In this document: piece by piece, positions 7,845-27,679 of the stretch | How the letters are laid out: every line of letters starts with the position of its first letter | How positions within the stretch are numbered: the stretch's first letter is position 1 | Virus record (IMG/VR): IMGVR_UViG_3300032156_000999 | Location: 1-46,611 of that record | Reading direction: 5' to 3' (one strand) | Source: a virus | DNA length: 46,611 nucleotides | Program-made: the position numbers and the translations under genes | Notes under the pieces: generated by a model | Told to the model about the DNA's origin: nothing | Seen by the model: the letters and a program-made list of their open reading frames with translations, nothing else | Database searches by the model: none

Positions 7845-7920
7845 GGTTGGACCTTTCGCGGCCGGCCCTTGGGCCAACCGCCGCGCTTTGCGTTCCGCCG
7901 ACAGGTACAAGCGGGGCTGC

Positions 7921-15303: not shown

Positions 15304-17564
15304 AAGACCAAGACCCCTATCGGATCATCAAAACGCCCGACCTGTCGTGGATCAATGACGAATTCCAGCGGGCCGGAGCAATCTCGCCCAACGCCGTGGG
15401 CCGCGACCGCGCGGACGACATCCGCTATTGTCGTTGGAAAGGTCGCAGCACGGATTACAAGAAACACCGCAAGTTGCTGGGATACGATCCGACACCGTGG
15501 GAAGACGGGTGGGACTCCCGGGTGTTCATTGCTGACGCAATCATCGAGGATTTGGGGGATGTGCTTTGCAGCGCGCTTAAACGGGCTCAGATCAGGTGCC
15601 GACCCACGGATGCAATGGACATGGAACGAGCAGCCAATGCCGAGAAAGTCATACAGAAATACGTCGAGCGTGATGGCGCGGCCATCTTTTCCGAGCTGGA
15701 ATTAGGGTGGCAATTCACCGCGTCCTACGGAGGCACTGCCGCCTATCAGATCACTTGGAACAGAGAACTTGCTCTTAAAATGGAGTGGGTGAAACTCGAA
15801 GAGGTGGTGAGCGCGGCTCAGCGTGCCGGGATAGCCCTGCAAAGCGGCCAGGTGCCACCTGAAATGATGGAGCAGGTTCAAAGGTTGATCGACCTGCCCA
15901 ACATCATCCTGGATCCCGCTTTGGAAGATGTGTTCGTGCAACTATTTCAGCAACGCGCCGCGGCGTTGGCGGAACAACTCTTTGCGGGAGAGATTGCTTC
16001 CTACGGCCGCGCATGGCTGAAAAACTACAAGGTGTCATCGTCCGTCGCCCGGCAGGTGGTGCGCGACTTGCGCGAAACGGGGTCCGGGCAATGGCCCAGG
16101 CCGTATCTCGTCTCGAACGCGCCGGAAGTGGTCGCCCGCGAGTTGGGTTTTGATTTCTTCCTGCCCCCGGAGGCGACCGATGTGGATCGGGCGTCGTGGA
16201 TCATGGTGCGGGAATTTCTAACCCCGGTCGAACTGGCCGCCGCCCAGGCGACCGAAGGATGGTCGAAGGAATGGGTGGATGAAGCCACCGAACACGCGGG
16301 AGAGACAACCATCTGGAGCGATCTCCAGGATCGCGCGACGGTGATGGAAGACGAGGAAAGCAGCACCTACTCGGCGCACGTCTTGCCGTCGAACACCGGT
16401 TTGGTCGAAGTCATCACCACATACATGCGGTGCATGAGCCGCGAAGGCATCCCGCAAATCTGGTGTACGGTCTGGTGTCCGCATGTCCTGACCGATGACC
16501 AGGGCGCGGACCTCTATGCGGCTCATTATGCCATGGACACTCCTGGGGCCTCATATCCGTTTGTCGGTTATCGCTGGCGCCGCAATCGGCGCAACGTCTA
16601 TTCCACACCGGGAATCCCGGCTCTAGTAGGAAGCGATCAGGCAAGCATCAAGCGCAGCACGGACATGCTGGTGGACCGACAGGATGTCGAAGTGAATCCG
16701 CCGTGGGTCACATCCATACGCCGCGGCCAGATTTTCAAAGCCAATCCGGGCAGTCAAATCCCGGTGCACCGCGGGCCGGACGAGTTAAGCCGAATGCCGC
16801 CACCCACCGGGAGCCCCCAACTGGCTTTCGAACTCATTCACCAGATCGAAGTGCGACTGGCTCGCCGTTTTGGTTTGTTTCATCCCGATGTCCCTCCAGC
16901 TCACACCCAGGCCAAACTTCAGGCTTTGGCCGACCGGTTTCTCCAGGCGGCGGCGGATGTGTTCCGTAAGATGCTTGGCCTGATTCAAAGCCAGGCCACC
17001 GACGAGGAACTGGCTCGCATCGCCGGCCCGAACGCCCAATTCCCGCGCACCAGCGAGGACATTGCGGGCGAATACGATGTGTCCTTACACTTCGATGTCA
17101 AGGATCTGGATTTCGATTACTCGCAGAAGAAACTGCAGAGCGTGGTGGAAATCTCGAAGGTACTTGATCGCTCGGGCTCAATCGACAGCAACGCGATGGT
17201 TCGGATTGCCTTGGGCGCGGTGGATCCGACACTCATTCAAGCGCTCTTGCCCGACCAAGGAGCGGCAGGCAAAGCGGTATTGGACCGGGTTAAAAATGAC
17301 ATGGCCCAGATGTTTCTGGGTGTGCCATTCGATCCGGTCGAAGCCGATCCCACGGCTCGGGCGCAACTCCAGTTCGCCGAACAAATCGTTCGGTCCAATC
17401 CCAATTACCAGGCCGGTCTGGGTCTCGTTCCCAACGCGCCAGGCAACGAACGGTTTACAAAACTGTTCGAGGATTGGAAGAAGAACCGCCAGCAAAGCGT
17501 AAAACAGGAAGAGAATGTGGCGACTGGCAGATTAGGCATAAACCCGCAGGAGATTGGCGCGTGA
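15300..17564 (+). CDS. Portal protein
   Basis: A 754-residue protein in the expected portal position after the terminase. It has an acidic, aromatic N-terminal part, long helices in the middle, the 'YPFVGYRWRRNRRNVYSTPGIP' block and a helical C-terminal half (QLAFELIHQIEVRLARRFG, FLQAAADVFRKMLG) as in P22-like and SU10-like portals. It would form the dodecameric ring at the packaging vertex and the base for the tail adaptor. ATGA overlap with the preceding gene and GTGA with the next. Call rests on size, composition and order more than on one diagnostic motif. Confidence 0.8.
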   Translation: MKDQDPYRIIKTPDLSWINDEFQRAGAISPNAVGRDRADDIRYCRWKGRSTDYKKHRKLLGYDPTPWEDGWDSRVFIADAIIEDLGDVLCSALKRAQIRCRPTDAMDMERAANAEKVIQKYVERDGAAIFSELELGWQFTASYGGTAAYQITWNRELALKMEWVKLEEVVSAAQRAGIALQSGQVPPEMMEQVQRLIDLPNIILDPALEDVFVQLFQQRAAALAEQLFAGEIASYGRAWLKNYKVSSSVARQVVRDLRETGSGQWPRPYLVSNAPEVVARELGFDFFLPPEATDVDRASWIMVREFLTPVELAAAQATEGWSKEWVDEATEHAGETTIWSDLQDRATVMEDEESSTYSAHVLPSNTGLVEVITTYMRCMSREGIPQIWCTVWCPHVLTDDQGADLYAAHYAMDTPGASYPFVGYRWRRNRRNVYSTPGIPALVGSDQASIKRSTDMLVDRQDVEVNPPWVTSIRRGQIFKANPGSQIPVHRGPDELSRMPPPTGSPQLAFELIHQIEVRLARRFGLFHPDVPPAHTQAKLQALADRFLQAAADVFRKMLGLIQSQATDEELARIAGPNAQFPRTSEDIAGEYDVSLHFDVKDLDFDYSQKKLQSVVEISKVLDRSGSIDSNAMVRIALGAVDPTLIQALLPDQGAAGKAVLDRVKNDMAQMFLGVPFDPVEADPTARAQLQFAEQIVRSNPNYQAGLGLVPNAPGNERFTKLFEDWKKNRQQSVKQEENVATGRLGINPQEIGA

Positions 17565-17842
17565 AAACATTCGATCAGCAGGATCTGGCGCGTATGGCGG
17601 ATGGATTGCACAGCATGAACGATAACCAATGGGCCGCCCTGCAGGATGCCATCACCATGCAATGGCTGGAAACCGCCAAGCAGGCACTTGGCGCCGGACT
17701 GGATGACCTGGAACGCAACTATGAATGTGGATGCGCCGCCGGGTTGGAGATGTTCCGCGCCGTGCTGCTTGACCTCCGCAGCGGAACTTGGCGAACCTGG
17801 ACGCAAACGCTCGCGGAGGCAGTCACGGAGGATAGAACATGA
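17561..17842 (+). CDS. Hypothetical protein after portal
   Basis: A 93-residue protein starting at GTG 17561, whose GTGA overlaps the portal stop. A longer frame back to 17474 lies inside the portal gene and is rejected. The protein is mostly helical, acidic and Trp-containing (MADGLHSMNDNQWAAL) with a short Cys motif (YECGCAAG). Role unknown; coupled to the portal, so perhaps a minor head component. Confidence 0.6.
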   Translation: MKTFDQQDLARMADGLHSMNDNQWAALQDAITMQWLETAKQALGAGLDDLERNYECGCAAGLEMFRAVLLDLRSGTWRTWTQTLAEAVTEDRT

Positions 17843-18291
17843 AGGATGCAACGAACCCTAGCGCACGCCAAAATATGCCCGCAACGCAGTGCTCGAATTA
17901 TCCACGGCGTCCAGTGAAATACCGTTTTCTGAGGAATGGGGAACATATTCTCCGAGGGGATGAATGGTTCGACGAACGCGATGCCACTTGGAATCCAACA
18001 ACTGAGGATAGTTGGGGCACGATCGTCGTAAAAGGCTTTCGATGCCGAAAAAAAATATGCAGTACGACGACAAGCAGCACCGTGGGGTTAAATGCTGGAG
18101 CACGGCGCGAGCGTGAGATGAAGCGCCTCAACCGCCTGCTCCGAGAATCCCAGGCTGAACTCATGCGCCTACGTGATGCAATCGAACGTGCGCTGTCCGA
18201 CTCGGAATCCGGCACAGGATGGGGGCCGGATGTTTCCGTGTGCTCATATCTTCGAGACGCGCTATCGCCGAACGACCAAGCTGAGCGATGA
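17839..18291 (+). CDS. Phage protein read into the first attC-like site
   Basis: A 150-residue frame. Residues about 26-72 (VKYRFLRNGEHILRGDEWFDER...) resemble small phage proteins of unknown function. A charged helical part (REREMKRLNRLLRESQAELMRLRDAIE, about residues 91-117) could be a coiled coil. The last residues PNDQAER and the stop are supplied by the first attC-like site at 18267, so the native end is altered or the last part is itself a cassette. A GTTAAAT at 18087-18093, which fits an integron core site, is one possible left junction; this is speculative. Confidence 0.6.
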   Translation: MKDATNPSARQNMPATQCSNYPRRPVKYRFLRNGEHILRGDEWFDERDATWNPTTEDSWGTIVVKGFRCRKKICSTTTSSTVGLNAGARREREMKRLNRLLRESQAELMRLRDAIERALSDSESGTGWGPDVSVCSYLRDALSPNDQAER

Positions 18292-18364
18292 GTGCCCCAC
18301 CTGAACCAATCGAATTTGCCGAGCGCGTCGCGGGGCACTCATTCGGTCCAGCGCCTGGTTCGGC
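18267..18364 (-). repeat. attC-like site 1
   Basis: Boxes gccgaac (18267-18273) and gttcggc (18358-18364). Inner stem ATGAGTGCCCC (18288-18298) pairs perfectly with 18332-18342. The overlapping stop-start ATGA is at 18288-18291, inside the stem. Same family as site 11. Confidence 0.85.
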
Positions 18365-18500
18365 ATCATGGCGTGGTGCGCTCAAAGAAGCTGCCTCTCG
18401 CCGCGACTTCCCGAGCCTGCTGTTTGCTGAAAAGTGGATTCGGTCACTTTCAAAAGCCGGACTGTATCCCCGCTGGTGGGGAGACGACAAAGGCGAATGA
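18288..18500 (+). CDS. Cassette protein with attC-encoded N-terminus
   Basis: A 70-residue unrecognised protein. Residues 1-26 come from attC-like site 1 and resemble those of the zinc-binding cassette protein at 21997. The cassette-encoded remainder (WRGALKEAASRRDFPSLLFAEKW...) has no Met, so translation depends on the start codon inside the site, which overlaps the upstream stop (ATGA). Short, basic and aromatic, with no membrane segment. The stop lies 3 bases before site 2. Function unknown. Confidence 0.6.
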   Translation: MSAPPEPIEFAERVAGHSFGPAPGSASWRGALKEAASRRDFPSLLFAEKWIRSLSKAGLYPRWWGDDKGE

Positions 18501-18502
18501 AC

Positions 18503-18607
18503 GCCGAACGACCAAGCTGACCGATGAGAGGGAGCGTGCCAACGACGTTCGATTGCAAGCTGCGGCTGCCCGCGCTCCCTCTCATTCGGTCCAGCGCCTG
18601 GTTCGGC
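18503..18607 (-). repeat. attC-like site 2
   Basis: Boxes gccgaac (18503-18509) and gttcggc (18601-18607). Stem arms GATGAGAGGGAGCG and CGCTCCCTCTCAT. ATGA at 18524-18527 opens a 31-codon frame that ends in another ATGA at 18616-18619, the start of the next cassette gene. Same family as site 15, but the inner ATG of that family is ACG here. Confidence 0.85.
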
Positions 18608-18615
18608 GTCCCGTT

Positions 18616-18897
18616 ATGAAACACAATCGTCATGGACACAACTGCCACGGTGTTGCTGTGGATGTATTCATGCAGATGGTCACGCGCCACCGCTGGGAAG
18701 AAGTCCGGGACGTATGGCCCGATGACTACAAAGCACCGACGATGGACACGCTGAAAATTGATTCATCATGGGCAGACCTGAGAAGCCAACAGAACATGAA
18801 TGGCCACGAGAAACAATGGATGCGCGAATACAAACAACTGTGCGCGAGACTTGGACCGTATGTGCCGAACGTCCCGGATCAGAGACCCGGCCAATGA
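18616..18897 (+). CDS. Cassette protein, His-rich N-terminus
   Basis: A 93-residue protein starting MKHNRHGHNCHG, with a His/Cys-rich first dozen residues that could bind metal. A soluble helical body with many Trp, Asp and Gln residues follows. The ATG lies 9 bases after the right box of site 2, and the last ~10 residues (NVPDQRPGQ type) and the TGA come from site 3. It is one of the few plus-strand cassette genes with its own start. Function unknown. Confidence 0.5.
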   Translation: MKHNRHGHNCHGVAVDVFMQMVTRHRWEEVRDVWPDDYKAPTMDTLKIDSSWADLRSQQNMNGHEKQWMREYKQLCARLGPYVPNVPDQRPGQ

Positions 18898-18955
18898 AAA
18901 CTTTGAATTGCAACCGAGACGCTATGGCCGGGTTCTCTGCATCCGGTTGTTCGAC
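18864..18955 (-). repeat. attC-like site 3
   Basis: Boxes gccgaac (18864-18870) and gttcgac (18949-18955). Arms CAGAGACCCGGCC and GGCCGGGTTCTCTG. ATGA at 18894-18897. Family shared with site 17. The variant right box gttcgac is matched by the left box gtcgaac of site 4, not by its own left box. Confidence 0.85.
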
Positions 18956-19195
18956 AATTTCGCAGCGAGGGCAGTCCGTCACTAAGACGTGCCGTGGGGT
19001 AGCCGAAACCTTCTCCGCGCAAGCGGTGACATGGCTCGGTAGAAATCGGGGCATTCGTGCCGTTATCCGGTTGGGAACACATCACGGGACTGAGCGACCT
19101 GGCCGAAAACTAAGCCGGCGCATGACACCAGCACTAACCAAATCATCGGCTCCAATGTGCGTTTGGGCACTGAAATGCCGGTGGGGTGTCATGTT
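18956..19195. other. Cassette with no convincing gene
   Basis: Cassette body between sites 3 and 4. The plus-strand frame from the ATG at 18894 stays open to 19259 but is Arg/Thr-rich and unconvincing. On the minus strand a 27-codon frame (19146-19063) starts MIWLVLVSC and looks like a signal or lipoprotein leader, yet stops early. That suggests a decayed gene. A 9-base inverted repeat (CATGACACC at 19121, GGTGTCATG at 19186) flanks the right part. Confidence 0.4.
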
Positions 19196-19318
19196 GTCGA
19201 ACGTCCAAGGTGAGCGGCGGCGTGGAAGCGCCACACCAGCAACGGAACGAAACCCATGAAAGATCCCAAACTATCACGAGAACGCGGGGAGGCCGTCCGC
19301 TCGACCGCCTTGTTCGAC
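19196..19318 (-). repeat. attC-like site 4
   Basis: Boxes gtcgaac (19196-19202) and gttcgac (19312-19318). ATGA at 19256-19259. Very similar throughout to site 12, except in the boxes. The loop start opens only a 22-codon peptide ending at 19324, because the following cassette carries its first gene on the other strand. Confidence 0.85.
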
Positions 19319-19319
19319 G

Positions 19320-19538
19320 TTATTTGAAAAGGAGCGAACACAATGAAAGCAAAAATGAACCAATGGATACCCAGATCGTTATCCAAGCTCGTCGGTTTGT
19401 TCCGGCGTTCTTCCGCTCGTCAATCACGTAGCGATGAGCGAGGCCATGATGGGACTCGGGCTTGTAGCCAGCAGCATCCCGGATCAGGTCGGTTGTGCTC
19501 TTATTCCGGGCTATTTGAAGGAAGTCATTCTCTGTCAT
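19320..19538 (-). CDS. Small tail-anchored membrane protein
   Basis: A 72-residue protein with a soluble charged N-terminal part and one C-terminal membrane helix (residues about 50-71, AWITIWVSIGSFLLSLCSLLF), so probably tail-anchored. Its layout and the motif SLCSL near the end resemble the cassette protein at 24109-24387, suggesting one family. On the minus strand its stop lies beside site 4. It shares the cassette with a divergent plus-strand gene. Function unknown. Confidence 0.6.
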   Translation of the reverse strand: MTENDFLQIARNKSTTDLIRDAAGYKPESHHGLAHRYVIDERKNAGTNRRAWITIWVSIGSFLLSLCSLLFK

Positions 19539-19546
19539 CGGATGAG

Positions 19547-19753
19547 ATGGATAGGATTAGAGAGCGATCCGCCAATTATGCGCGTTCACTGCTGGGAGGG
19601 AGCGACGAAGTGCCAATTGATGATCTTTCTGACCTGGGGATGATGTGTGTTGTGGATATTCCACGATTGCTGGCGCTGGTGCGGACATCGACGAACGTCC
19701 AAGTGGAGCGACAGCCGCCGACCGAAACCCAAACCGAAGGCACGCACCCGTGA
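19547..19753 (+). CDS. Small acidic cassette protein
   Basis: A 68-residue protein starting MDRIRERSANYARSLLGG, acidic in the middle (DEVPIDDLSDLG) and followed by the hydrophobic helix MMCVVDIPRLLALVR. It diverges from the membrane-protein gene in the same cassette. The frame is open back to 19343, but that part is antisense to the other gene. The final ~18 residues (NVQVERQ...) and the TGA come from site 5. Function unknown. Confidence 0.5.
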   Translation: MDRIRERSANYARSLLGGSDEVPIDDLSDLGMMCVVDIPRLLALVRTSTNVQVERQPPTETQTEGTHP

Positions 19754-19813
19754 ACTTCAAGCAACCGTCCAATGACCATGCGGGCGGCTGTTCGCTCGCA
19801 CGCCTTGTTGGGC
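19690..19813 (-). repeat. attC-like site 5
   Basis: Boxes gacgaac (19690-19696) and gttgggc (19807-19813). The right box fits the classical GTTRRRY core and is matched exactly by the left box gcccaac of site 6. The stop-start overlap here is GTGA (19750-19753). Arms of the family GTGGAGCGACAGCCGCC / GGCGGCTGTTCGCTCGC shared with sites 6, 7, 8 and 16. Confidence 0.85.
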
Positions 19814-19821
19814 CTTTCAAG

Positions 19822-20127
19822 TTAATGCGGTCCCTCAGACTGTTCATAATGGCCGTCAGGATAATAGACGAATACCAAAGGTGGGAAGCCGGGCCGGGCC
19901 GGCTCGTATCCGTAACAAATCTTTTCATTGACCCGCTGTGCCACCTCACACATGACGGTGTGCATCCATGCCACGTACTGTGGGATAATCTTCGAACTGC
20001 GGCGTCCCTCCCATTGCGCACGAAGCCAATGCGCGCCGCTTGGAGCCTTCTTAAACACGGCGTAGTCTATCTTGATCGTGACCGATGCGCCGTCAAAGGC
20101 CGCGTAAAATGTTGCTTCATCGCTCAT
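19822..20127 (-). CDS. Cassette protein, soluble, 101 residues
   Basis: Unrecognised soluble protein starting MSDEATFYAAFDG, with alternating beta-like segments (VTIKIDYAVFKK), a helical centre and an aromatic, Pro-rich end (FPPLVFVYYPDGHYEQ). Its start is 24 bases from the box of site 6 and its stop 9 bases from site 5, so it fills its cassette in the canonical sense orientation. The plus frame across it is open because it lies codon-on-codon opposite; the minus reading has the more protein-like composition. Confidence 0.6.
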   Translation of the reverse strand: MSDEATFYAAFDGASVTIKIDYAVFKKAPSGAHWLRAQWEGRRSSKIIPQYVAWMHTVMCEVAQRVNEKICYGYEPARPGFPPLVFVYYPDGHYEQSEGPH

Positions 20128-20150
20128 ACGATCAATGGCGTGATGGAGTG

Positions 20151-20273
20151 GCCCAACGATCAAGTGGAGCGACAGCCGCCGACCCAAACTCAAACCGAAG
20201 AAAGAAACTCATGAACTCATACAACGTCATAACGACCGCGCTGGCGGCTGTTCGCTCGCACGCCTTGTTAGCC
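20151..20273 (-). repeat. attC-like site 6
   Basis: Boxes gcccaac (20151-20157) and gttagcc (20267-20273); they do not pair with each other but with the boxes of sites 5 and 7. ATGA at 20211-20214. Same family as sites 5, 7, 8 and 16. Confidence 0.85.
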
Positions 20274-20294
20274 GTTCTCGACACGGCCCACAAA

Positions 20295-20636
20295 CTACTT
20301 CTTGCTTGCTGGTGCAGCGTCATGCTGATTTGTCTGTATGGTCTGTGGCTGTGCGGAACCATCCTGTTTGAGCATTATTCCGGTCTGTACCAGCGCCGTC
20401 GCCAGAAGTCCGAAAGTGAGAACCGCCAGAAACCATGTGAGGGCGACAATGCGCCTGGTTTGCCGATCCCCCTGCCGGGTGAGAATCGCCTGGATCGACG
20501 CAAATTTTCGAATGGCGGTGATCAAAGCAATAGTGTTGGCCTTCGGATTTCCAGCCGATGTGCCTTCCATTGCAAGGCGGTCAAGTTCGTCAAGCAGTGC
20601 GTCTATTTCCTTGGAAAGGTCGTTATGTTTAGACAT
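20295..20636 (-). CDS. Small membrane protein with charged N-terminal helix
   Basis: A 113-residue protein. An acidic helical N-terminus (MSKHNDLSKEIDALLDELDRLAMEG) is followed by a basic helix, one membrane segment at about residues 63-90 (IVALTWFLAVLTFGLLATALV) and a hydrophilic Gln/Ala tail. It probably sits in the inner membrane with a cytoplasmic coiled-coil-like domain. Start 11 bases from site 7, stop 21 bases from site 6: canonical cassette packing on the minus strand. Function unknown. Confidence 0.65.
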   Translation of the reverse strand: MSKHNDLSKEIDALLDELDRLAMEGTSAGNPKANTIALITAIRKFASIQAILTRQGDRQTRRIVALTWFLAVLTFGLLATALVQTGIMLKQDGSAQPQTIQTNQHDAAPASKK

Positions 20637-20647
20637 ACTCAAAATAC

Positions 20648-20741
20648 GGCTAACGACCAAGTGGAGCGACAGCCGCCACCCCCGACACGATGAAAGCCCA
20701 CGACTCAACTGGCGGCTGTTCGCCCGCACGCCTTGTTCGGC
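20648..20741 (-). repeat. attC-like site 7
   Basis: Boxes ggctaac (20648-20654) and gttcggc (20735-20741). ATGA at 20690-20693. Nearly identical to site 16 except for the left box (gccgaac there), which instead matches the right box gttagcc of site 6. This is what exchange of cassettes at the box predicts. Confidence 0.88.
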
Positions 20742-20744
20742 GTC

Positions 20745-21005
20745 TCATTTCGACACGATCCATTTTGGTGCCTCATGAAAGAATAATACTCTGTACGGAA
20801 CCTTCAGCCTATCGGCGAGTGCTAGGGCGCCACAGAGAGCGGACAACCCACTTTCTGCGGGAAGCTGCCAGCAGCCTTCGGATGGCTGGATGGCTCCTGG
20901 AAGCTGCCTGGCCATATTTTCGAGATGGGCCAGTACTTTGGATCTGTTGTTCTCTTCTGCGGTGGCTTCAGCCGCCACAGGAAATGCGACAAGTATCGAA
21001 TCCAT
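20745..21005 (-). CDS. Cassette protein, 86 residues
   Basis: Unrecognised soluble protein starting MDSILVAFPVAAEAT, with a helical centre (KVLAHLENMARQLPG), a Cys-containing Gly/Ser part and a Leu/Arg/Val-rich end (LKVPYRVLFFHEAPKW). An AGGA 9 bases upstream fits a ribosome binding site. Start 13 bases from site 8 and stop 3 bases from site 7. The opposite-strand frame is open too but has the Arg/Leu/Trp/Cys bias of an antisense reading. Confidence 0.55.
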   Translation of the reverse strand: MDSILVAFPVAAEATAEENNRSKVLAHLENMARQLPGAIQPSEGCWQLPAESGLSALCGALALADRLKVPYRVLFFHEAPKWIVSK

Positions 21006-21018
21006 GTGAAAATCCTAC

Positions 21019-21144
21019 GCCGAACGATAGAACTGAGCGACAGCCGCCGACAGAAACGGTGGAGCGCAGAAAGGACTCACGATGAACACAGAACTTTGGA
21101 ACGGAGAAGCGGGGCGGCTGTTCGCTCCAGTGACCTTGTTAGCC
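21019..21144 (-). repeat. attC-like site 8
   Basis: Boxes gccgaac (21019-21025) and gttagcc (21138-21144), the latter matched by ggctaac of site 9. ATGA at 21082-21085 with AAAGGA upstream as a possible ribosome binding site. The plus-strand frame from here runs open to 21528, mostly antisense to the next gene. Confidence 0.85.
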
Positions 21145-21198
21145 TTCCTGTCTCTTTTCGTAGTCAGCTTCATCCTCATCGGGTTGCCTTTGGGTCAC

Positions 21199-21474
21199 CT
21201 ACTCGGAGTGCGGCGGGCGCGCCGAGAGTTGGCCCACGATCTGCGCCGCCCGCGTGTTGACCATGTTCCGAAACTCGGTGAAGATCGAATGCCACTCGTC
21301 GTAAACCTTGCGGCGAAGCTCTGCGTCGGCTATCGCCTGCTCTTTCTGAAAAGCAAGCTGCTGCTCCAGCAGGCGCTGCTGAAAACGATAGGTCAGACGA
21401 CACGACAACCAAGCACCGAGCAATGTGCCGAGAGCGATGCTCCCAGCCCCAGCAAAGAAAACTTCGTATGTCAT
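21199..21474 (-). CDS. Membrane-anchored coiled-coil protein
   Basis: A 91-residue protein with an N-terminal membrane segment (residues about 3-25, EVFFAGAGSIALGTLLGAWL) and a long charged helix (about 26-75, FQQRLLEQQLAFQKEQAIADAE...) likely to form a coiled coil in the cytoplasm or periplasm. Its start is 17 bases from site 9. Composition strongly favours this strand over the open plus-strand frame. Similar architectures occur in lysis accessory and scaffold-like membrane proteins, but no function is assigned. Confidence 0.65.
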   Translation of the reverse strand: MTYEVFFAGAGSIALGTLLGAWLSCRLTYRFQQRLLEQQLAFQKEQAIADAELRRKVYDEWHSIFTEFRNMVNTRAAQIVGQLSARPPHSE

Positions 21475-21491
21475 AGTGATGTGCGAATGCA

Positions 21492-21588
21492 GGCTAACGA
21501 CCAAGATCAGCCACGGATGCCCCTATGAGAACTCTCGACTTTAGAAATGCGTGGCGGGGCATCCGTTGGCTGCATCGCCTTGTTCGGC
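21492..21588 (-). repeat. attC-like site 9
   Basis: Boxes ggctaac (21492-21498) and gttcggc (21582-21588). Arms CAGCCACGGATGCCCC and GGGGCATCCGTTGGCTG. ATGA at 21525-21528. The only site of its loop family in the array. Confidence 0.85.
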
Positions 21589-21755
21589 CTTGGCATCATC
21601 ACTTCATAATCCTCCGAATTGGCAGAACGACAATCTGGGTGTTCCCATTTTGGTGGGGTGAATACGAAACATGCACGGGGCAAAGCATCGGCCCGATAAG
21701 CTGGGTGCGTAGGCCGAACGACCAAGCTGAGGCACGGCGAGACCCAAGCCCATGA
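21525..21755 (+). CDS. Short aromatic cassette protein with attC-encoded ends
   Basis: A 76-residue protein. Residues 1-21 are encoded by site 9 and the last ~10 (NDQAEAR...) by site 10. The cassette-encoded centre is rich in His, Trp, Phe and Ile (HHHFIILRIGRTTIWVFPFWW), has no Met and may be partly membrane-inserted. Start and stop codons both lie in attC sites and both are ATGA overlaps. Function unknown; it could be a non-functional filler. Confidence 0.5.
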   Translation: MRTLDFRNAWRGIRWLHRLVRPWHHHFIILRIGRTTIWVFPFWWGEYETCTGQSIGPISWVRRPNDQAEARRDPSP

Positions 21756-21804
21756 ATAAACCTGAGACCAAACCCGAGCCGTTGCCTCCAGCGGATGGTT
21801 CGGC
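21713..21804 (-). repeat. attC-like site 10
   Basis: Boxes gccgaac (21713-21719) and gttcggc (21798-21804). Arms AGCTGAGGCACGGC and GCCGTTGCCTCCAGC. ATGA at 21752-21755. Family shared with site 13; the loop encodes the KPEPLPPADGS-type leader. Confidence 0.85.
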
Positions 21805-22000
21805 GTCATCTACCAATTTTCCCGGCATCTGGTGCTGCACGGCACGACTCGAATGCAAGTGGCAAGGATTCGCGCTCAACCACGGATTGGCATGGGGAAC
21901 AGTGCCGCATCCACTTGACCCGTGGAGGAAATACCACGAGAGGGCCTGCCCTGGACAGCTCGTGCAACTCATGCCGCCGAACGATCAAGCTGAGCGATGA
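21752..22000 (+). CDS. Cassette protein with attC-encoded leader, 82 residues
   Basis: Residues 1-18 (KPEPLPPADGS type) come from site 10 and the last 7 (NDQAER) from site 11. The cassette-encoded middle is Trp/Cys-rich (IWCCTARLECKWQGF, AWGTVPHPLDPW) and may bind metal through three Cys, but no clear finger is seen. The first internal Met is near the end, so the start must be the ATG in site 10. ATGA overlaps at both ends. Function unknown. Confidence 0.6.
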   Translation: MNKPETKPEPLPPADGSASSTNFPGIWCCTARLECKWQGFALNHGLAWGTVPHPLDPWRKYHERACPGQLVQLMPPNDQAER

Positions 22001-22073
22001 GTGCCCCATCCCATATTGCCGAATTGCCAAGCAGCGTGGCGGGGCACTCATTCGCTCCAGCGCCTGGTTCGGC
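21976..22073 (-). repeat. attC-like site 11
   Basis: Boxes gccgaac (21976-21982) and gttcggc (22067-22073). Stem ATGAGTGCCCC (21997-22007) pairs with 22041-22051, as in site 1. ATGA at 21997-22000 within the stem. Confidence 0.85.
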
Positions 22074-22359
22074 GGATCGTCCACAATGCGGATCATGCCA
22101 CCGGGAGATGACGCCACAAAACTCATCGCAATGCCCTGAACTTTTCCTCTGCGATGACTGTGCAACGCTCGCGGCTATCCCGGCGCGGATGCTGCAAACC
22201 GACTGGCTGCGCCTCCACCGCGAGAACCAAGCCATGCGCGTGGAAATTGATGGGCTGAAGGCCAAGCTGCTCGTTGAACGCATCAAGGGCCTGACGCCGA
22301 ACGACCAAGGTGAGCGGCGGCCTGGAAACGCCGCTCCAACAATGAAAGGAAACCCATGA
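21997..22359 (+). CDS. Zinc-ribbon-like cassette protein with coiled coil
   Basis: A 120-residue protein. Residues 1-26 are attC-encoded. Residues 31-55 carry C31-x2-C34 and C52-x2-C55 with an extra C46, a zinc-ribbon-like arrangement. A charged helix (LRLHRENQAMRVEIDGLKAKL, about 71-91) suggests a coiled coil. A Met inside the finger (38) cannot be the start, so the ATG of site 11 is used. The tail (NDQGERRPGN...) is from site 12. Possibly nucleic-acid or protein binding; function unknown. Confidence 0.65.
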   Translation: MSAPSHIAELPSSVAGHSFAPAPGSADRPQCGSCHREMTPQNSSQCPELFLCDDCATLAAIPARMLQTDWLRLHRENQAMRVEIDGLKAKLLVERIKGLTPNDQGERRPGNAAPTMKGNP

Positions 22360-22418
22360 AAGATCCCAAATCATCAAGAGAACGCGGGGAGGCCGTCCGC
22401 TCGACCGCCTTGTTCGGC
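22296..22418 (-). repeat. attC-like site 12
   Basis: Boxes gccgaac (22296-22302) and gttcggc (22412-22418). ATGA at 22356-22359, preceded by AAAGGAAA as a good ribosome binding site. Close copy of site 4 apart from the boxes. Confidence 0.85.
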
Positions 22419-22451
22419 GTCTGGGTGGAATACGATAAAGCCAAGTGCGCC

Positions 22452-22700
22452 TCAATCATCGGCCCAGCCGTCATCCTCAGCCATCAAGCACGCGAACGCA
22501 CGCAGCATGGCCAGTTCCTCGGCTGGAATCGGATCCGTGCCAAGATCACGGACTGCAAGGTACAGATGATGGAGGCACTTCAATCCTCGTGGCGTCCAAT
22601 GCACAGCAAACTTGCCCTCGTGGTCCGCCAACTCCGTGGCCCATCCAGCCCGCATGGCGCGCTCACCCGTCTTTTGCATCAAGGGCGTCACCTTATCCAT
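22452..22700 (-). CDS. Cassette protein, soluble, acidic end
   Basis: An 82-residue protein starting MDKVTPLMQKTGERAMRAGW, with helical segments, a 'HEGKFAVHWTPRGLKCL' centre and an acidic C-terminus (CLMAEDDGWADD). Balanced composition and confinement between sites 12 and 13 (start 14 bases from site 13's box, stop 33 from site 12) support it over the open plus frame, which lies codon-on-codon opposite. I recall similar small proteins from cassette-rich genomes but cannot name a family. Confidence 0.6.
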   Translation of the reverse strand: MDKVTPLMQKTGERAMRAGWATELADHEGKFAVHWTPRGLKCLHHLYLAVRDLGTDPIPAEELAMLRAFACLMAEDDGWADD

Positions 22701-22714
22701 AAACGTGCAAAACC

Positions 22715-22806
22715 GTCGAACGACCAAGCTGAGGCACGGCGAGAAAGAGACCCATGATTGAAACCAAGACCCAACCCGAGCCGTTGCCTCCAGCGGATGG
22801 TTCGGT
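22715..22806 (-). repeat. attC-like site 13
   Basis: Boxes gtcgaac (22715-22721) and gttcggt (22800-22806). The unusual right box is matched exactly by the left box accgaac of site 14. ATGA at 22754-22757. Family shared with site 10. Confidence 0.87.
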
Positions 22807-22981
22807 GATTCTGGTGCGCGCCATGCACCGGGCCGCTGTTGCTCGGAGGGTTAAATCTGGCAACCGATATGATCCAGAGGACCACCTTATCGCACTTGCC
22901 GATGAGGTTCTGCGACTCCGCAGGCTACTCGCCGATTCACCGAACGACCAAGCTGAGCGGCGCGAGTCCAAGATTCTATGA
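22754..22981 (+). CDS. Cassette protein with attC-encoded leader, 75 residues
   Basis: The leader (residues 1-17, QPEPLPPADGS type) comes from site 13 and the tail (NDQAERRESKIL) from site 14. The cassette-encoded centre is an amphipathic charged helix (HRAAVARRVKSG, DEVLRLRRLLADS) and may be a small helical DNA- or protein-binding unit. Both ends are ATGA overlaps. A Met at about residue 24 could be an alternative start. Function unknown. Confidence 0.6.
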   Translation: MIETKTQPEPLPPADGSVILVRAMHRAAVARRVKSGNRYDPEDHLIALADEVLRLRRLLADSPNDQAERRESKIL

Positions 22982-23046
22982 CGAAACGAAAGCAACGAAC
23001 TGACGACCAGCACTCCCGAGCGTCCGCTCCAGCGCCCTTGTTCGGG
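22939..23046 (-). repeat. attC-like site 14
   Basis: Boxes accgaac (22939-22945) and gttcggg (23040-23046). ATGA at 22978-22981. Arms GAGCGGCGCGAGTCC and ACTCCCGAGCGTCCGCTC pair imperfectly. The only site of its loop family. Confidence 0.83.
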
Positions 23047-23050
23047 GTAC

Positions 23051-23311
23051 CTATCTGGCCTCCGCAGGTGCCGCAAAACCTAATGGCGCCTGACCCGGCT
23101 GCGGCGTATCGAACATTTGGACAACCTGCCTGTGAAAGTTCGCAGCAAGTATATGCTCGAGTGCTTGATCAGCAGCGACCTTTTCGATCGTTCCGAGTGC
23201 AAAGTAGCTTTTGCCAAACATCTCCCGGGCACAGTGCAGCGACGCCAAGAAGTAAAGCTCGGAGGAAATCATCCTGAGCATGTGTTCATCGAACGTGTAT
23301 TTATGATCCAT
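23051..23311 (-). CDS. Cassette protein, helical, 86 residues
   Basis: Unrecognised protein starting MDHKYTFDEHMLRM, mostly helical (ELYFLASLHCAREMFG, KVAADQALEHILAANF), with a Pro/Ala/Gly-rich tail. It fills the cassette between sites 14 and 15 on the minus strand (stop 4 bases from site 14, start 21 bases from site 15). The plus strand here is broken into two frames, which favours this reading. No ribosome binding site is evident. Confidence 0.6.
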   Translation of the reverse strand: MDHKYTFDEHMLRMISSELYFLASLHCAREMFGKSYFALGTIEKVAADQALEHILAANFHRQVVQMFDTPQPGQAPLGFAAPAEAR

Positions 23312-23332
23312 AGACGTAATAGTGTACTGCCG

Positions 23333-23435
23333 CCGAACGACCAAGCTGAGCGATGACGGGGAGCGCGCAAATGACCTTCGATTGCAACGTGGACGCACCG
23401 CGCTCCCCGTCATTCGCTCCAGCGCCTTGTTCGGC
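23333..23435 (-). repeat. attC-like site 15
   Basis: Boxes gccgaac (23333-23339) and gttcggc (23429-23435). Stem GATGACGGGGAGCG pairs with CGCTCCCCGTCAT. ATGA at 23353-23356. A second ATG at 23371 follows GGGGAG (23358-23363), so the stem arm also carries a ribosome binding site. Confidence 0.86.
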
Positions 23436-24015
23436 GTTCAGGTGTATCGTCTCCGATCCTCCTTGGGAATATCCCGAAGGCTTCAACTCGCAGCCGCACG
23501 CGCACGACGGGCCAATCACGCATGACAAGCCGCTGCCGTATCCATCAATGACGGTGGAGGAAATCTGCGCGCTCCAGGTCTCCGCGCTCGCCGCCAAGGA
23601 CTGCCGACTCTGGCTGTGGACGACGGGCCGATACCTGCCTTATGCGTTCACAGTGATGAAAGCCTGGGGCTTCCGATACCGGCAAACGCTCGTCTGGCAC
23701 AAGCTCGACGGAAACATGGGCGGCGGGGTAGCTCCAAACTCTGCCGAGTTCCTGCTGGTGGGCGTGAAAGGAAACCCGCCGATCAAATCGAAGCTAAAGC
23801 AGTCGGTGTTCGCGTTCGCGAAAAGCGCGAAGCACTCGCGCAAGCCGAAGGAATGGCTGTGGCTCATAGAGCAGGTGGACGATGGGCCACGCTTGGAAAT
23901 GTTCGCTCGCCGGAAGCGTCCCGGCTGGCACGTCTGGGGCAACGAACTCGCCAACGACGTTGAACTGCCGCCGAACGACCAAGTGGAGCGACAGCCGCCA
24001 CCCCCGACACAATGA
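23353..24015 (+). CDS. MT-A70-type adenine methyltransferase (cassette 1)
   Basis: A 220-residue N6-adenine methyltransferase of the MT-A70 type. The catalytic DPPW is at residues 35-38, followed by the Rossmann-like elements LWLWTTGRYLPYAFTVM, GFRYRQTLVWHK, the 'PRLEMFARRKRPGW' end motif and WGNE. It would methylate adenine in DNA, perhaps shielding phage DNA from restriction. The first ~27 residues are encoded by site 15 and run straight into FRCIVSDPPW; the body lacks its own start. The tail after DVEL (PPNDQVER...) is from site 16. ATG 23371 with GGGGAG is an alternative start. Confidence 0.85.
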   Translation: MTGSAQMTFDCNVDAPRSPSFAPAPCSAFRCIVSDPPWEYPEGFNSQPHAHDGPITHDKPLPYPSMTVEEICALQVSALAAKDCRLWLWTTGRYLPYAFTVMKAWGFRYRQTLVWHKLDGNMGGGVAPNSAEFLLVGVKGNPPIKSKLKQSVFAFAKSAKHSRKPKEWLWLIEQVDDGPRLEMFARRKRPGWHVWGNELANDVELPPNDQVERQPPPPTQ

Positions 24016-24063
24016 AAACCCACGACTCAACTGGCGGCTGTTCGCTCGCACGCCTTGTTCGGC
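23970..24063 (-). repeat. attC-like site 16
   Basis: Boxes gccgaac (23970-23976) and gttcggc (24057-24063). ATGA at 24012-24015. Nearly identical to site 7 (GTGGAGCGACAGCCGCC / GGCGGCTGTTCGCTCGC arms), differing mainly in the left box. Confidence 0.87.
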
Positions 24064-24227
24064 GATTACTGAATCTGGATACTGAGATCATCGCCGTAAT
24101 AAGCGTCGTCATCTCGGTGCTGGCGCTGGCGCTGCAAGTGTGGGCGTTCCATGAGATGCACCGCGCGCGCGAGGCGCATCGCTCATATTCCACACTGACA
24201 AACCTAGAGAACACAAGGAAACAATGA
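24012..24227 (+). CDS. Small membrane protein with attC-encoded N-terminus
   Basis: A 71-residue frame. Residues 1-18 are from site 16. A very hydrophobic segment (about 25-46, IIAVISVVISVLALALQVW) then gives one membrane helix, followed by a charged tail. The body has no Met before the helix, so the start is the site's ATGA. It overlaps the minus-strand gene 24109-24387 by 119 bases; the two hydrophobic segments do not coincide. Both may be expressed, or only one is real. It ends in a further ATGA at 24224. Confidence 0.45.
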   Translation: MKTHDSTGGCSLARLVRRLLNLDTEIIAVISVVISVLALALQVWAFHEMHRAREAHRSYSTLTNLENTRKQ

Positions 24228-24387
24228 ACGCAGCCAGAGCCAACCACCGAGACAGTCGCGTTGACCGACGCTCTAACTCCAGTTTGGCGGCTATATGCCG
24301 TGGCGAGGTGGGTTTGTCGCCCGCGATCAACTCAATCAGAAGGCGCCGTGAGTGCCCCCTGAAGTCATCAAGTTCTTGGTCGGTCAT
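24109..24387 (-). CDS. Tail-anchored-like small membrane protein
   Basis: A 92-residue protein starting MTDQELDDFRGHS. A charged helical part (LLIELIAGDKPTSPRHIAAKL) is followed by a membrane segment (LALAAFIVSLCSLGLSVW) and a low-complexity tail. The order of parts and the SLCSL motif match the cassette protein at 19320-19538. Start 15 bases from the box of site 17, stop 45 bases from site 16, the normal packing of sense cassette genes. The low-complexity tail may be read antisense to the plus gene. Confidence 0.6.
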   Translation of the reverse strand: MTDQELDDFRGHSRRLLIELIAGDKPTSPRHIAAKLELERRSTRLSRWLALAAFIVSLCSLGLSVWNMSDAPRARGASHGTPTLAAPAPAPR

Positions 24388-24402
24388 ACGTGTTACACTT
24401 TC

Positions 24403-24494
24403 GCCGAACGCTTCGGATCAGAGACCCCGCCCATGATGACTCTCGATTGCAACCAAGACGCGAAGGCGGGGTTCTCTGCATCCGATTGTTCGGC
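24403..24494 (-). repeat. attC-like site 17
   Basis: Boxes gccgaac (24403-24409) and gttcggc (24488-24494). Arms GGATCAGAGACCCCGCC and GGCGGGGTTCTCTGCATCC. ATGA at 24433-24436. Same family as site 3. Confidence 0.86.
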
Positions 24495-25068
24495 ATTTCG
24501 GTGTATCGTCGCTGACCCTCCGTGGTGGTATAACCGCGACTGGGATGGAAGCTCTGGTAGAGGCTCACGCGGGCTGGTGCTTGGTGGTCGGTCAGTCGCG
24601 ATGCCATACGAGCAGATGAAGCTGGACGCAATCAAGGCGCTCCCAATCGGTTCAATGGCTGCTGAACAGTGCGACCTCTACCTGTGGGTGACTCAGAAGT
24701 ATCTGCCGGACGCCTTCGATGTTCTCGACGCTTGGGGCTTCCGCTACTGCCAAACGCTGACCTGGTGCAAGACGCCACGCGGCACGGGCCAAGGCGGACT
24801 CTACTGCCCGACAACCGAGTTCCTGATTCTGGGGCGCAAGGGAAAGATGCCCGACAAGAAGCGCGTGGACTCGACCTGGTGGAACGTGAAACGCCCGCAC
24901 AACTGCCACAGCGCGAAACCGGAGTTCTTCCAGGATATGATTGAGGCCATGAGCGACGCTCCCCGCCTCGAACTTTTCGCCCGCCGCAAACGGCTCGGCT
25001 GGCATCACTGGGGCAACGAAGTCGCCAGTGACGTAGAAATGCCGAACAAGCATTCAACCGAAACTTGA
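24433..25068 (+). CDS. MT-A70-type adenine methyltransferase (cassette 2)
   Basis: A 211-residue adenine methyltransferase of the MT-A70 type. DPPW is at residues 28-31; LYLWVTQKYLPDAFDVLDAWGF, YCQTLTWCKT and the PRLELFARRKRLGWHHWGNE ending align with the other cassette methyltransferase, but overall similarity is moderate, so it is not a recent duplicate. It also starts inside an attC site (17) and its body has no start codon before FRCIVADPPW. The stop is in or just after the terminal half-site. A longer frame upstream is not preferred because of the ATGA at 24433. Confidence 0.85.
   Translation: MMTLDCNQDAKAGFSASDCSAFRCIVADPPWWYNRDWDGSSGRGSRGLVLGGRSVAMPYEQMKLDAIKALPIGSMAAEQCDLYLWVTQKYLPDAFDVLDAWGFRYCQTLTWCKTPRGTGQGGLYCPTTEFLILGRKGKMPDKKRVDSTWWNVKRPHNCHSAKPEFFQDMIEAMSDAPRLELFARRKRLGWHHWGNEVASDVEMPNKHSTET
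25041..25060 (-). repeat. Terminal half attC-like site
   Basis: A box gccgaac (25041-25047) matches the right box of site 17, followed by AAGCATTCAACCG and then unrelated sequence with no partner box. It marks the right end of the array, as if the rest of the site, and any attI and integrase beyond it, had been lost, or as if this were the original insertion core. Confidence 0.6.
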
Positions 25069-25071
25069 CAG

Positions 25072-25365
25072 ATGCACGGGGATTGGAAAGGACCGTTCCG
25101 TAGGCGGATGCAACGTCGAGCATCGGAACGCGGGCGTCGTATGGCCGCTCGCAGATGGGCACTGGATCGCCAACGCCGCCAAAGGTTGGCCGCACTCAGG
25201 ACCGACCAATACCCGAACGCCATCGTTAAACGCATTGTGGTCATCTGGCACGAACGAGTTGTGCGTGAAACCACGATACGCACCTGGGATTCCGTCCGCG
25301 AAGCCCGACGCAAGGAACGAATGTGTCTGGCCCCGCTCGTAAATTCGACGATTACTGCCTCCTAA
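25072..25365 (+). CDS. Arg-rich hypothetical protein
   Basis: A 97-residue, very basic protein (MHGDWKGPFRRRMQRRASERGRR start) with a core 'RTDQYPNAIVKRIVVIWHERVVRETTIRTWDS' that looks like a small beta domain and a charged tail. It starts 3 bases after the methyltransferase stop and is the first gene right of the array. It could be a phage gene or an outer cassette whose attC was lost. Basic composition hints at nucleic acid binding. Not recognised. Confidence 0.55.
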   Translation: MHGDWKGPFRRRMQRRASERGRRMAARRWALDRQRRQRLAALRTDQYPNAIVKRIVVIWHERVVRETTIRTWDSVREARRKERMCLAPLVNSTITAS

Positions 25366-25478: not shown

Positions 25479-25530
25479 CTGAGTTTGCGCCCAAGAGCAA
25501 ACCCTGTTGCCCACTTGCTGGGCCAAAAGC

Positions 25531-26646
25531 ATGTCAAAGCAGTTATCATCTGCCCCGGATCCCGTGGCTCCGGCGCCAGCGACCAGCAAAGGTCGCGCTG
25601 GCGAATCGCCCGCGCCCGTTGCGGCCCCGCAGGCCACCAGCGATGAGGCGACGCTGAACGCCGATCTGCTCGAAGCGATCAGCGAGTTGCCCAGCCTGGC
25701 GTCTGAGACGCCTCCAGAACCCGATGCGGTTGAACCCGAGGTAGTGGCGACCGAAGGACCCGCCACCGCCGAGGATGATGCCGCCTCTGAATCCATTACC
25801 TCCGATTCCGACGAACCCAGCGAACCCGAGACCGAACCCGAGGAGGATGAAGCGGCCCGGAAAGATTGGCCGGTCAAGGCCAAGCGGCGTCTATCGAAAC
25901 TGGTTAAACGGGTGAAAGCACTCGAAAGCCAGCTCGAAGGGGCCGACCAGTTGCGTGTGGAACGTGACCGGCTCCAGGCCGAACTGGCCAGCGCCCAGAC
26001 GCCCCCAGAACCGGCTCCAGCCGAATCCGCCCCGGCGCCAGAAGCCGCCCAGGCGCTTCCGCCCGGAGCGATCACAGCCGAAGAAGTGCGACGCGCGAGC
26101 GTGATCCAGAAGCTCACAGATGCTATCGCAAACATCGACAAGCATCCAGAAGGGATAACGGTCGATGGCGAGGAGTTATCTGCCGAGTATCTGACCCAGT
26201 TGCGTGAGCAATGGGTCGAGCAGCGTCTGATGGAGCGGCTCGAATTGCGGCAACACCGCGAACGAGTGGCTGCCTACGGGCAGAAACTGAACGCGGAAGC
26301 ATCCGAGCAACATCCATGGCTGAAGAACAGGGCCGATCCTCGCACACAGCAACTCGAACAGATCCTGGTCGCCTATCCGGGCGCCCGGAATTTTCCCGGT
26401 ATGCGCAAGGTGCTGGCCGACGCGATCGCTTATGAGGCGCTCAGGCAGGCCAAGGCCAAAGGCAACGGTTCGGCGCCACGCTCGGTCACTCCGCCACCGC
26501 GACAACCGGCTCGGCCGGCCGCGGCTCCGGCCGAGACGACACCCGCGAAGCCGAATCTCGGCGCGAAGTTCAAGAAATACGAGGGCAGTGGATCCAATGC
26601 AGACCTGGCCGATTTAGTGCCAGACCTGATCGAGACACGCGACTAA
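25531..26646 (+). CDS. Capsid scaffolding protein
   Basis: A 371-residue acidic protein directly before the major capsid gene. Residues 1-110 are Pro/Ala/Glu-rich and disordered. A coiled coil follows (about 115-150, KRRLSKLVKRVKALESQ), then another Pro-rich linker, a helical region (about 185-300) and a basic Pro-rich tail ending before DLVPDLIETRD. This profile and place fit a scaffold that guides procapsid assembly and is then removed. The ATG at 25531 is preferred over a TTG at 25507. Function is inferred from position and composition. Confidence 0.75.
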   Translation: MSKQLSSAPDPVAPAPATSKGRAGESPAPVAAPQATSDEATLNADLLEAISELPSLASETPPEPDAVEPEVVATEGPATAEDDAASESITSDSDEPSEPETEPEEDEAARKDWPVKAKRRLSKLVKRVKALESQLEGADQLRVERDRLQAELASAQTPPEPAPAESAPAPEAAQALPPGAITAEEVRRASVIQKLTDAIANIDKHPEGITVDGEELSAEYLTQLREQWVEQRLMERLELRQHRERVAAYGQKLNAEASEQHPWLKNRADPRTQQLEQILVAYPGARNFPGMRKVLADAIAYEALRQAKAKGNGSAPRSVTPPPRQPARPAAAPAETTPAKPNLGAKFKKYEGSGSNADLADLVPDLIETRD

Positions 26647-26674: not shown

Positions 26675-27679
26675 ATGCTTTTGGAACGTAACCAGGTTGG
26701 AAAGCGCGAAATGCTTGCCAACATCATCTCGCGTGTCGATGCCAAGAACACGCCAGTAACCAGCATGATGGGGCGAGGTGAATCCCTATCCAACATGCTG
26801 TTCGAGTGGCAGATGGACGATTTCGAGTCCCCCGGCGAAGTGGCCGTGGAAGATGGAGTCGATGTCGATACCTTCTCGAACGCTTCCCCGAACCGAACCC
26901 GGGCTTCGATGTATGCCATGAAGATGCGCGACTCGGCTATGGTCTCGGATCTGGCGGAAAACGTGAGCGACGTGGCCGGTTTGAGCAAAGGCGAGCTGAG
27001 CGAGTCGATCATGAAGAAACTCAAGCGCCTGGCCCGCTGCATCGAAGCCTACATCTGCGGCGACCAGGATGCCCAACAAGGCGGAGCCGGCGTGGCCCAC
27101 AAAAGCCGTGGGCTCGGTTCATGGATTCAGACGGCAGCCCAGGGCGTCCTGCCCGTAGCCGCCGCGTTCCGCACGCCGGCCGCCAGTATCACAGCCGCAC
27201 CCACGGGAGGGCTAACCGAGGCCAATGTGAACACTGTTCTGGCCAGTATTTACGGCCAGACCGGCACAATCACGGATTTCAGATTTCCGTGCGGGCCGAC
27301 GCTGCGTCAGGTCTTCAGCACCTACACGCGCAGCGCGGGGGTGGGCGCCGGCACCACCAATCGCAGCTACAACACCAACTTCAACGGGACGGTCTCGAAC
27401 GTGGTGAACATTTTCGAGGGGGATTTCGGGACGTTGCACGTCATTCCCACCTTGTGGAATGCCGTCGAGTTGGCCGCTTTCGGTTCGCCTGCGGCGGGCA
27501 GCAACTTGTGCCGGGGTTACGCGCTCGATCCGAGCCTGCTGAAACTCCATTACAAGCGCCTGCCGCGCGTCAAGGAGTTGGAGGATCGCGGTGGAGGTCC
27601 ACGGTTTCTCGTGGATGCCATTCTCGGCTGGAGCGTGCTCAATCCGCTCGGCCTGGGAAAATTCAACGCGACCACATGA
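26675..27679 (+). CDS. Major capsid protein (SU10/DUF5309-like)
   Basis: A 334-residue HK97-fold-type major capsid protein. The start 'NQVGKREMLANIISRVDAKNTPVTSMM', the acidic Val-rich segment after it, 'NRTRASMYAMKMRDSAMVS' and the 'ALDPSLLKLHYKRLPRVKELEDRGGGPRFLV' C-terminus agree with capsid proteins of the SU10-like/DUF5309 group. A strong Shine-Dalgarno (CAGGAG, 26659-26664) stands 10 bases before the ATG, one of the clearest in the late operon, as expected for the most abundant virion protein. Confidence 0.85.
   Translation: MLLERNQVGKREMLANIISRVDAKNTPVTSMMGRGESLSNMLFEWQMDDFESPGEVAVEDGVDVDTFSNASPNRTRASMYAMKMRDSAMVSDLAENVSDVAGLSKGELSESIMKKLKRLARCIEAYICGDQDAQQGGAGVAHKSRGLGSWIQTAAQGVLPVAAAFRTPAASITAAPTGGLTEANVNTVLASIYGQTGTITDFRFPCGPTLRQVFSTYTRSAGVGAGTTNRSYNTNFNGTVSNVVNIFEGDFGTLHVIPTLWNAVELAAFGSPAAGSNLCRGYALDPSLLKLHYKRLPRVKELEDRGGGPRFLVDAILGWSVLNPLGLGKFNATT

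Follow-up and report, generated by a model that had tools for sequence, protein, structure and literature searches.

The stretch of DNA considered here (the window) is a single metagenomic virus record of 46,611 bases, IMGVR_UViG_3300032156_000999 from IMG/VR, and the element under study is an integron-type array of gene cassettes that lies within it. Protein family searches, including PHROGs, show that the window encodes phage terminase, portal/adaptor and capsid genes, and the array occupies the interval between the portal-proximal genes and the gene in the scaffold position (Table 1). It consists of 17 attC hairpins (18267-24494) and a half-site, GCCGAAC, at 25041-25047, with cassettes of 216-628 bp. 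A first-pass annotation of the sequence had described these sites and proposed that they follow the classical attC plan; all are present, and the fold agrees, with outer boxes, unpaired spacers, an inner stem, two extrahelical bases in the right arm and a variable loop.

Covariation within the sites points the same way. When the window sites are aligned (alignment A1), 89% of stem cells are paired, compared to 32-48% after a shift of the partner by 1-3 columns, and compensatory changes on both sides occur in 13 of 15 inner-stem pairs. The annotation had named a covariance model as the natural check, and we built one (R1) from the 17 sites on the + strand. R1 finds exactly these sites and no others in the window, the recovery of its own training sites being by construction, and it also detects arrays in other phages and beside bacterial integron integrase (IntI) genes. 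A search of the window against Rfam gave nothing above the gathering threshold, and the 26-letter motif of the attC5/6/7/16 type led to no further viral contig. Two or more integron-type attC sites in a row define a cluster of attC sites lacking an integrase (CALIN), and here covariation and the covariance model support 17.

A further feature of these sites is the reading frame that passes through them. Following the frame that runs along the phage and crosses the box RYYYAA↓C (the arrow marks the crossover) with AAC as one codon (P-N-D-Q...), we find that in 17 of 17 window sites its stop is the TGA contained in an ATGA or GTGA start codon inside the attC. The same junction is present in strict form in 7 of the 11 sites of a distantly related phage (G010, 41.6 kb), and in all 11 when the start may lie within a few bases. 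Chromosomal attCs of Verrucomicrobiia carry it in only 6 of 58 cases (12 of 58 for near matches), and the first bacterial genome inspected had it in 2 of 24. The enrichment in the window over the Verrucomicrobiia is strong (Fisher p=3e-12), with the limit that the 17 sites are not independent, since many come in similar pairs; they form about 10 subfamilies, all bearing the junction. Moreover, the crossover frame is free of stops through 12 of 16 window cassettes and 9 of 10 in G010, compared to 3 of 32 and 4 of 20, respectively, for the other + frames.

Read along the phage, a cassette is an attC with a start codon, then an open reading frame (ORF), then RYYYAA↓C. Because the constant crossover frame ends at a TGA overlapping the next start, the attC of a cassette in most cases provides the start and initial residues of its ORF, and the neighbouring attC, or the half-site, provides the C-terminal tail and the stop. 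The last ORF crosses the half-site in the junction frame (...EMPNKHSTET and stop), ending three bases before the ATG of the flanking phage gene, and another phage, G004, has the same arrangement at this end (SNKHISDS and stop, then CAG ATG). In four methyltransferase cassettes (two MT-A70 in the window, and C5 enzymes in G010 and G028) the domain starts at residues 22-31, just past the segment encoded by the attC, and no alternative in-frame start was seen before the domain in the window MT-A70 pair. The 17 junctions, the open frame and the window methyltransferase cassettes with no other usable start together indicate that the attC doubles as a phase-locked stop-start junction.

This geometry differs from that of a canonical cassette, in which the ORF runs toward its own attC and starts just after the core; here most ORFs begin within their attC and point away from it. 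A candidate ORF of classical geometry does occur in five cassettes. We considered the openness of the antisense strand in these five as a sign of selection and set it aside, as an in-register antisense frame is expected to be open by chance with a probability of 0.24-0.34 in each. Recognised cargo across the phage arrays includes MT-A70, N6/N4 and C5 methyltransferases, Mom-like DNA modification genes (loci L218 and L054) and a DNA polymerase beta-like protein, and most small cassette ORFs belong to no recognised family. Two further arrays of the same type, L048 and L061, also hold methyltransferase-like cassettes; L061 has a terminase, then a gene that looks helix-turn-helix-like by eye, then the attCs.

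The boundaries of the cassettes record how the array was put together. Because the six bases that follow the crossover in an integron array come with the next cassette, the ends of a cassette are expected to resemble each other more closely than the two boxes of an attC do. The crossover-flanking bases in the window match at 5.1 of 7 positions for the ends of a cassette versus 4.3 of 7 for the boxes of an attC (permutation p=5e-5), a comparison in which the half-site was placed one base off, with a conservative effect. In G010 the corresponding values are 5.7 and 3.5 of 7 (permutation p=5e-5). Given this match in both phages, the array was assembled cassette by cassette through site-specific recombination. 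The same test bears out a characteristic of CALINs, the 5′ bases of a cassette being complementary to the box of its own attC.

Two lines of evidence bear on the direction of the array. In the bacterial arrays checked, which adjoin IntI genes or pieces of them (C39, C38 and C23 of G017, C420 of G018, and C45 and C169 of G174), R1 hits are on the strand opposite to the canonical cassette direction. The recombinogenic strand is expected to carry the extrahelical bases of an attC in its right arm, and in the window attCs the + strand does so for both of them. On these grounds we rejected a + orientation; the array runs leftward, antiparallel to phage transcription. This affects how the half-site is understood. 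It forms no hairpin, has a 14-nt inverted match to the end of attC17, as would be expected of an attI-like acceptor, and is equivalent to the array ends of G004 and G010 as read from their sequences. Its presence is as first annotated, though it is most simply explained as an attI-like acceptor that heads the array rather than as a broken attC.

The annotation placed the array inside an otherwise intact phage and suggested that relatives lacking or varying it would be informative; such relatives exist, and they agree with the placement. G010, whose terminase, portal and capsid are 37-41%, 27% and 34% identical to those of the window, has its 11 attC sites between the portal gene and a homologue of the window's flanking gene, followed by the capsid gene. 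The cassette bodies of G010 have no nucleotide match to the window beyond attC-type segments. In G004 attCs come immediately before the homologue of the flanking gene. L102, which has the most similar capsid among the relatives found (61%), carries no attC anywhere in the record, and its locus, measured by homologue ends, spans about 0.3 kb versus 7.7 kb in the window, making it an empty site. Arrays are also found in Mu-like phages (G027, G029), in a helicase/terminase phage (G028), in G030, which has a lambda-type portal match, and in the pair G575/G576. For some of these the search motif itself included a start codon, and they are therefore not counted as independent evidence for the junction.

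The pair G575/G576 offers a view of recent change. On the two sides of one array, over about 10.9 and 18.9 kb (about 29.8 kb in total), these records agree at 99.97% and 100%, and the exact point from which they differ follows the L box GCATAAC of an attC. Past it, G575 has at least 3 further attC sites, and its contig runs out within an attC. We had taken the difference for a clean cassette insertion, and have scaled this back, as only the left breakpoint lies at a core site; the divergence fits live exchange at the crossover, in one pair. Two other observations were made in these phages, both by eye. The first 640 or so bases of reversed G575 (high end of L257) lie beside the variable array, are unique and are HNH-endonuclease-like in coding, and G576 differs there, perhaps reflecting homing or contig-end variation. 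The DnaB-like helicase of G576 (L233, about 3318-4350) is apparently interrupted by an intein-like insert.

As first annotated, the window has no integron integrase. A search of the whole record with TIGR02249 gave 16 bits against a cut-off of 265, and there is no intI gene with IntI-specific features of the kind that marks a complete integron. The sole tyrosine recombinase, at 6720-8054 (-), matches PF00589 and phrog_1 and reaches only 16-17 bits with integron-integrase models whose cut-offs are 265 and 435. As this is a phage-type integrase, the phage is probably temperate. The array-bearing records G010, G002, G004, G005 and G006 have no match to the integron-integrase model, and G012 reaches only 25 bits. 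Since the array-bearing phages searched have no IntI, a host IntI acting in trans is the likeliest recombinase.

The most likely host, judging by several genomic links, is a member of the Verrucomicrobiota. A motif scan of genome contigs returned mostly chance matches and served only as a lead to the Verrucomicrobia. Chromosomes of Verrucomicrobiia carry attCs matching R1 beside full-length IntI genes, and R1 sites occur in 102 of 286 Verrucomicrobiia genomes compared to 14 of 143 in the class of a Burkholderiales metagenome-assembled genome (MAG). Capsid relatives are found in 5 of 384 and 1 of 369 genomes, respectively, a weak difference. A Verrucomicrobiia MAG (G088) has a prophage-like region (L218, 5563-18776 of C89) with at least 8 attC sites between a DnaB-like helicase and a terminase, the last cassette being a Mom-like DNA modification gene, and an IntI (377 bits) on another contig. 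The chromosomal attCs beside IntI genes and this MAG make loading by a host integrase plausible.

We consider it probable that the integron-type array of the window, without an integrase in cis, is kept by a phage lineage at a fixed locus in the head-gene operon and adapted to phage expression. Under this explanation, a chromosomal IntI of Verrucomicrobiota type would act during infection or lysogeny, recombining the folded recombinogenic strand of the attCs, with cassettes gained or lost at the acceptor. As the attCs carry the stop and start codons of their neighbours, cassettes could be swapped without breaking translation; the constant phase would keep the operon translatable in any cassette order, and a ribosome arriving from upstream may carry translation through the attC hairpin. 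Cargo that modifies DNA could shield the phage from restriction. The fuller proposal of a phage-adapted integron, in which phase-locked junctions make any order a translation-coupled operon, phage genomes have a dedicated attI-like acceptor and host IntI does the loading, so as to give an exchangeable counter-restriction arsenal among Verrucomicrobiota phages, is one we hold with less assurance, at slightly better than even.

Several observations weigh against this explanation. The junction is weaker in other phage arrays (3 of 5 sites in G002, 1 of 3 in G004, 2 of 5 in G006 and 2 of 8 in the prophage L218). Five cassettes hold plausible - strand genes that would gain nothing from coupling, and some small + ORFs score low for coding. 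Change is seen in a single near-identical pair, in which the right breakpoint falls away from any core site, at HNH-like coding sequence in G575, and in which the G575 contig breaks off within the array. Links to host and prophage are soft as well, since MAGs may contain contaminants, and the comparison of hosts by capsid is numerically weak.

The alternative that survives best, though we think it unlikely, is that a fragment of an ordinary chromosomal integron was captured passively and is now frozen, the junctions being a by-product of operon compaction. Phage CALINs are indeed known (PMC9892861), the window attCs resemble those of Verrucomicrobiia chromosomes, and the five cassettes mentioned above retain the classical gene orientation. 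However, the junction is rare in the chromosomal pool but present at every window site and at most or all sites of G010, the same locus in G010 is filled with cassettes whose bodies gave no nucleotide match to the window outside the attC-type segments, and G575 and G576 differ from an exact crossover point onward. A less probable alternative still is that cassettes are mobilised by the phage's own tyrosine recombinase, or another phage factor, instead of host IntI. The window does encode such an enzyme and IntI is likewise a tyrosine recombinase, but the phage enzyme scores very low on integron-integrase models and matches many ordinary integrases, and the array-bearing records G010, G002, G004, G005 and G006 have no match to the integron-integrase model at all. 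Lastly, though repetitive arrays can mis-assemble and the window is one metagenomic record, a bacterial array joined artificially to a phage contig is very improbable, because the array position is kept in the distant relative G010, the same flanking gene directly follows the array in G004, the last gene of the array continues in frame across the acceptor to the flank region in both the window and G004, and many other phage records carry arrays.

Phage integron arrays as such are already known, and the novelty claimed in the first-pass annotation was overstated. Phage CALINs were published in 2023 (Qi et al., PMC9892861) for Tetrasphaera phage TJE1, Pseudoalteromonas phage PH101, Polaribacter phage P12002L and MW202573; they include methyltransferase cassettes, and 5 of 6 phage attCs assayed are reported to recombine with attI1 by IntI1. 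The window resembles these in having integrase-free attC sites and DNA methyltransferase cassettes in a phage. The published examples, as far as the excerpted text goes, are illustrated as small (3 attCs and 4 ORFs in TJE1), with a typical array structure in TJE1 and PH101, unlike the window with its 17 sites, a locus recurring in a distant relative, an antiparallel array and a constant-frame start and stop in the attC; stop-start junctions are not mentioned in that text. R1, built on the window attC type, finds no site in TJE1. The window also resembles the sedentary chromosomal integrons of Verrucomicrobiota, in attC sequence and structure (R1 up to 69 bits), in having an attC per cassette and in crossover boxes. 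These differ in having IntI nearby (e.g. at C39:498161-499093 of MAG G017) and attCs that, among the sites compared, usually lack the junction.

A partial precedent for the junction is ORF-11 at attI1 of class 1 integrons, known for translational coupling (PMC8876359), where a short frame crosses the crossover, is ended by the inserted cassette and aids its translation by termination-reinitiation. In the account available, ORF-11 is found only at attI, serves only the first cassette and has a Shine-Dalgarno sequence, whereas in the window a junction at every attC joins all cassettes and supplies N-terminal residues. The hairpins of attCs in ordinary arrays are reported to hinder ribosomes (PMC8876359, PMC4670013). 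No description of the attC as a general stop-start junction was found in the literature searched, subscription journals and preprints excepted, and to that extent the wiring into translation is the new part. The points added here to the first-pass annotation are the antiparallel array with its attI-like acceptor, the constant-frame stop-start within the attC, and the near-identical phage pair diverging at a boundary.

If correct, this would mean that phages maintain a permanent array tied into their own translation rather than carrying one by accident, with access to an exchangeable gene pool whose cargo includes Mom-like DNA modification as well as DNA methyltransferases. A way is also suggested for attC hairpins to become coding sequence with the frame conserved at the crossover point, a prediction open to existing integron assays and reporter fusions.

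Table 1. Features of the array and its phage context in the window. For attC rows, the - strand is the canonical cassette direction, identical for all sites; bits are covariance model scores.
Feature	Position	Strand	Basis or remark
Terminase large subunit	13160-15040	+	left phage context of array
Portal/head-tail adaptor	15300-17564	+	left phage context of array
Phage-side gene, upstream neighbour of array	17839-18291	+	attC1 supplies last codons and stop (PNDQAER, stop); ORF list, frame analysis
attC1, last counted from acceptor	18267-18364	-	fold; 88.3 bits
attC2	18503-18607	-	fold; 72.8 bits
attC3	18864-18955	-	fold; 65.3 bits
attC4	19196-19318	-	fold; 79.6 bits
attC5, start codon GTG	19690-19813	-	fold; 71.1 bits
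attC6	20151-20273	-	fold; 75.2 bits
attC7	20648-20741	-	fold; 78.1 bits
attC8	21019-21144	-	fold; 63.6 bits
attC9	21492-21588	-	fold; 78.9 bits
attC10	21713-21804	-	fold; 75.2 bits
attC11	21976-22073	-	fold; 90.7 bits
attC12	22296-22418	-	fold; 82.5 bits
attC13	22715-22806	-	70.7 bits
attC14	22939-23046	-	fold; 64.6 bits
attC15	23332-23435	-	fold; 81.4 bits
attC16	23970-24063	-	fold; 89.3 bits
attC17, of acceptor-proximal cassette	24403-24494	-	fold; 65.7 bits
Candidate attI-like acceptor core	25041-25047	-	GCCGAAC on +; crossover AA↓C between 25046 and 25047
Chain of predicted translation-coupled cassette ORFs	18288-23277	+	reaches to the first MT-A70 methyltransferase ORF; mostly no known family; most start at ATGA/GTGA inside attC
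Five cassettes with candidate classical-geometry ORF (region 19822-23311)	19822-20139, 20295-20639, 20745-21005, 21199-21477, 23051-23311	-	
MT-A70 DNA methyltransferase cassette ORF	23353-24015	+	PF05063, 96 bits from residue 29; start and first 28 residues in attC15, tail in attC16
Second MT-A70 methyltransferase cassette ORF	24433-25068	+	PF05063, 86 bits from residue 22; start in attC17, ends PNKHSTET and stop across acceptor core
Flanking phage gene (97 aa), at acceptor end in three phages	25072-25365	+	66% identical in G004, 57% over 42 aa in G010
Scaffold-position gene	25507-26646	+	position; 31% match to L102
Major capsid protein	26675-27679	+	phrog_1328

Some features of the wider phage may be added. 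A back-translation search for further homologues of the flanking gene gave nothing new. Two large proteins are encoded on the + strand, one of 1794 aa (1109-6493) with no PHROGs match at E 0.001 and none in Pfam, and one of 971 aa (36652-39567) with no PHROGs match at the same threshold. The only annotated phage record matching the window portal protein is that of Phage C75C1 (OQ984151.1, 26218-28149), at 24% identity.

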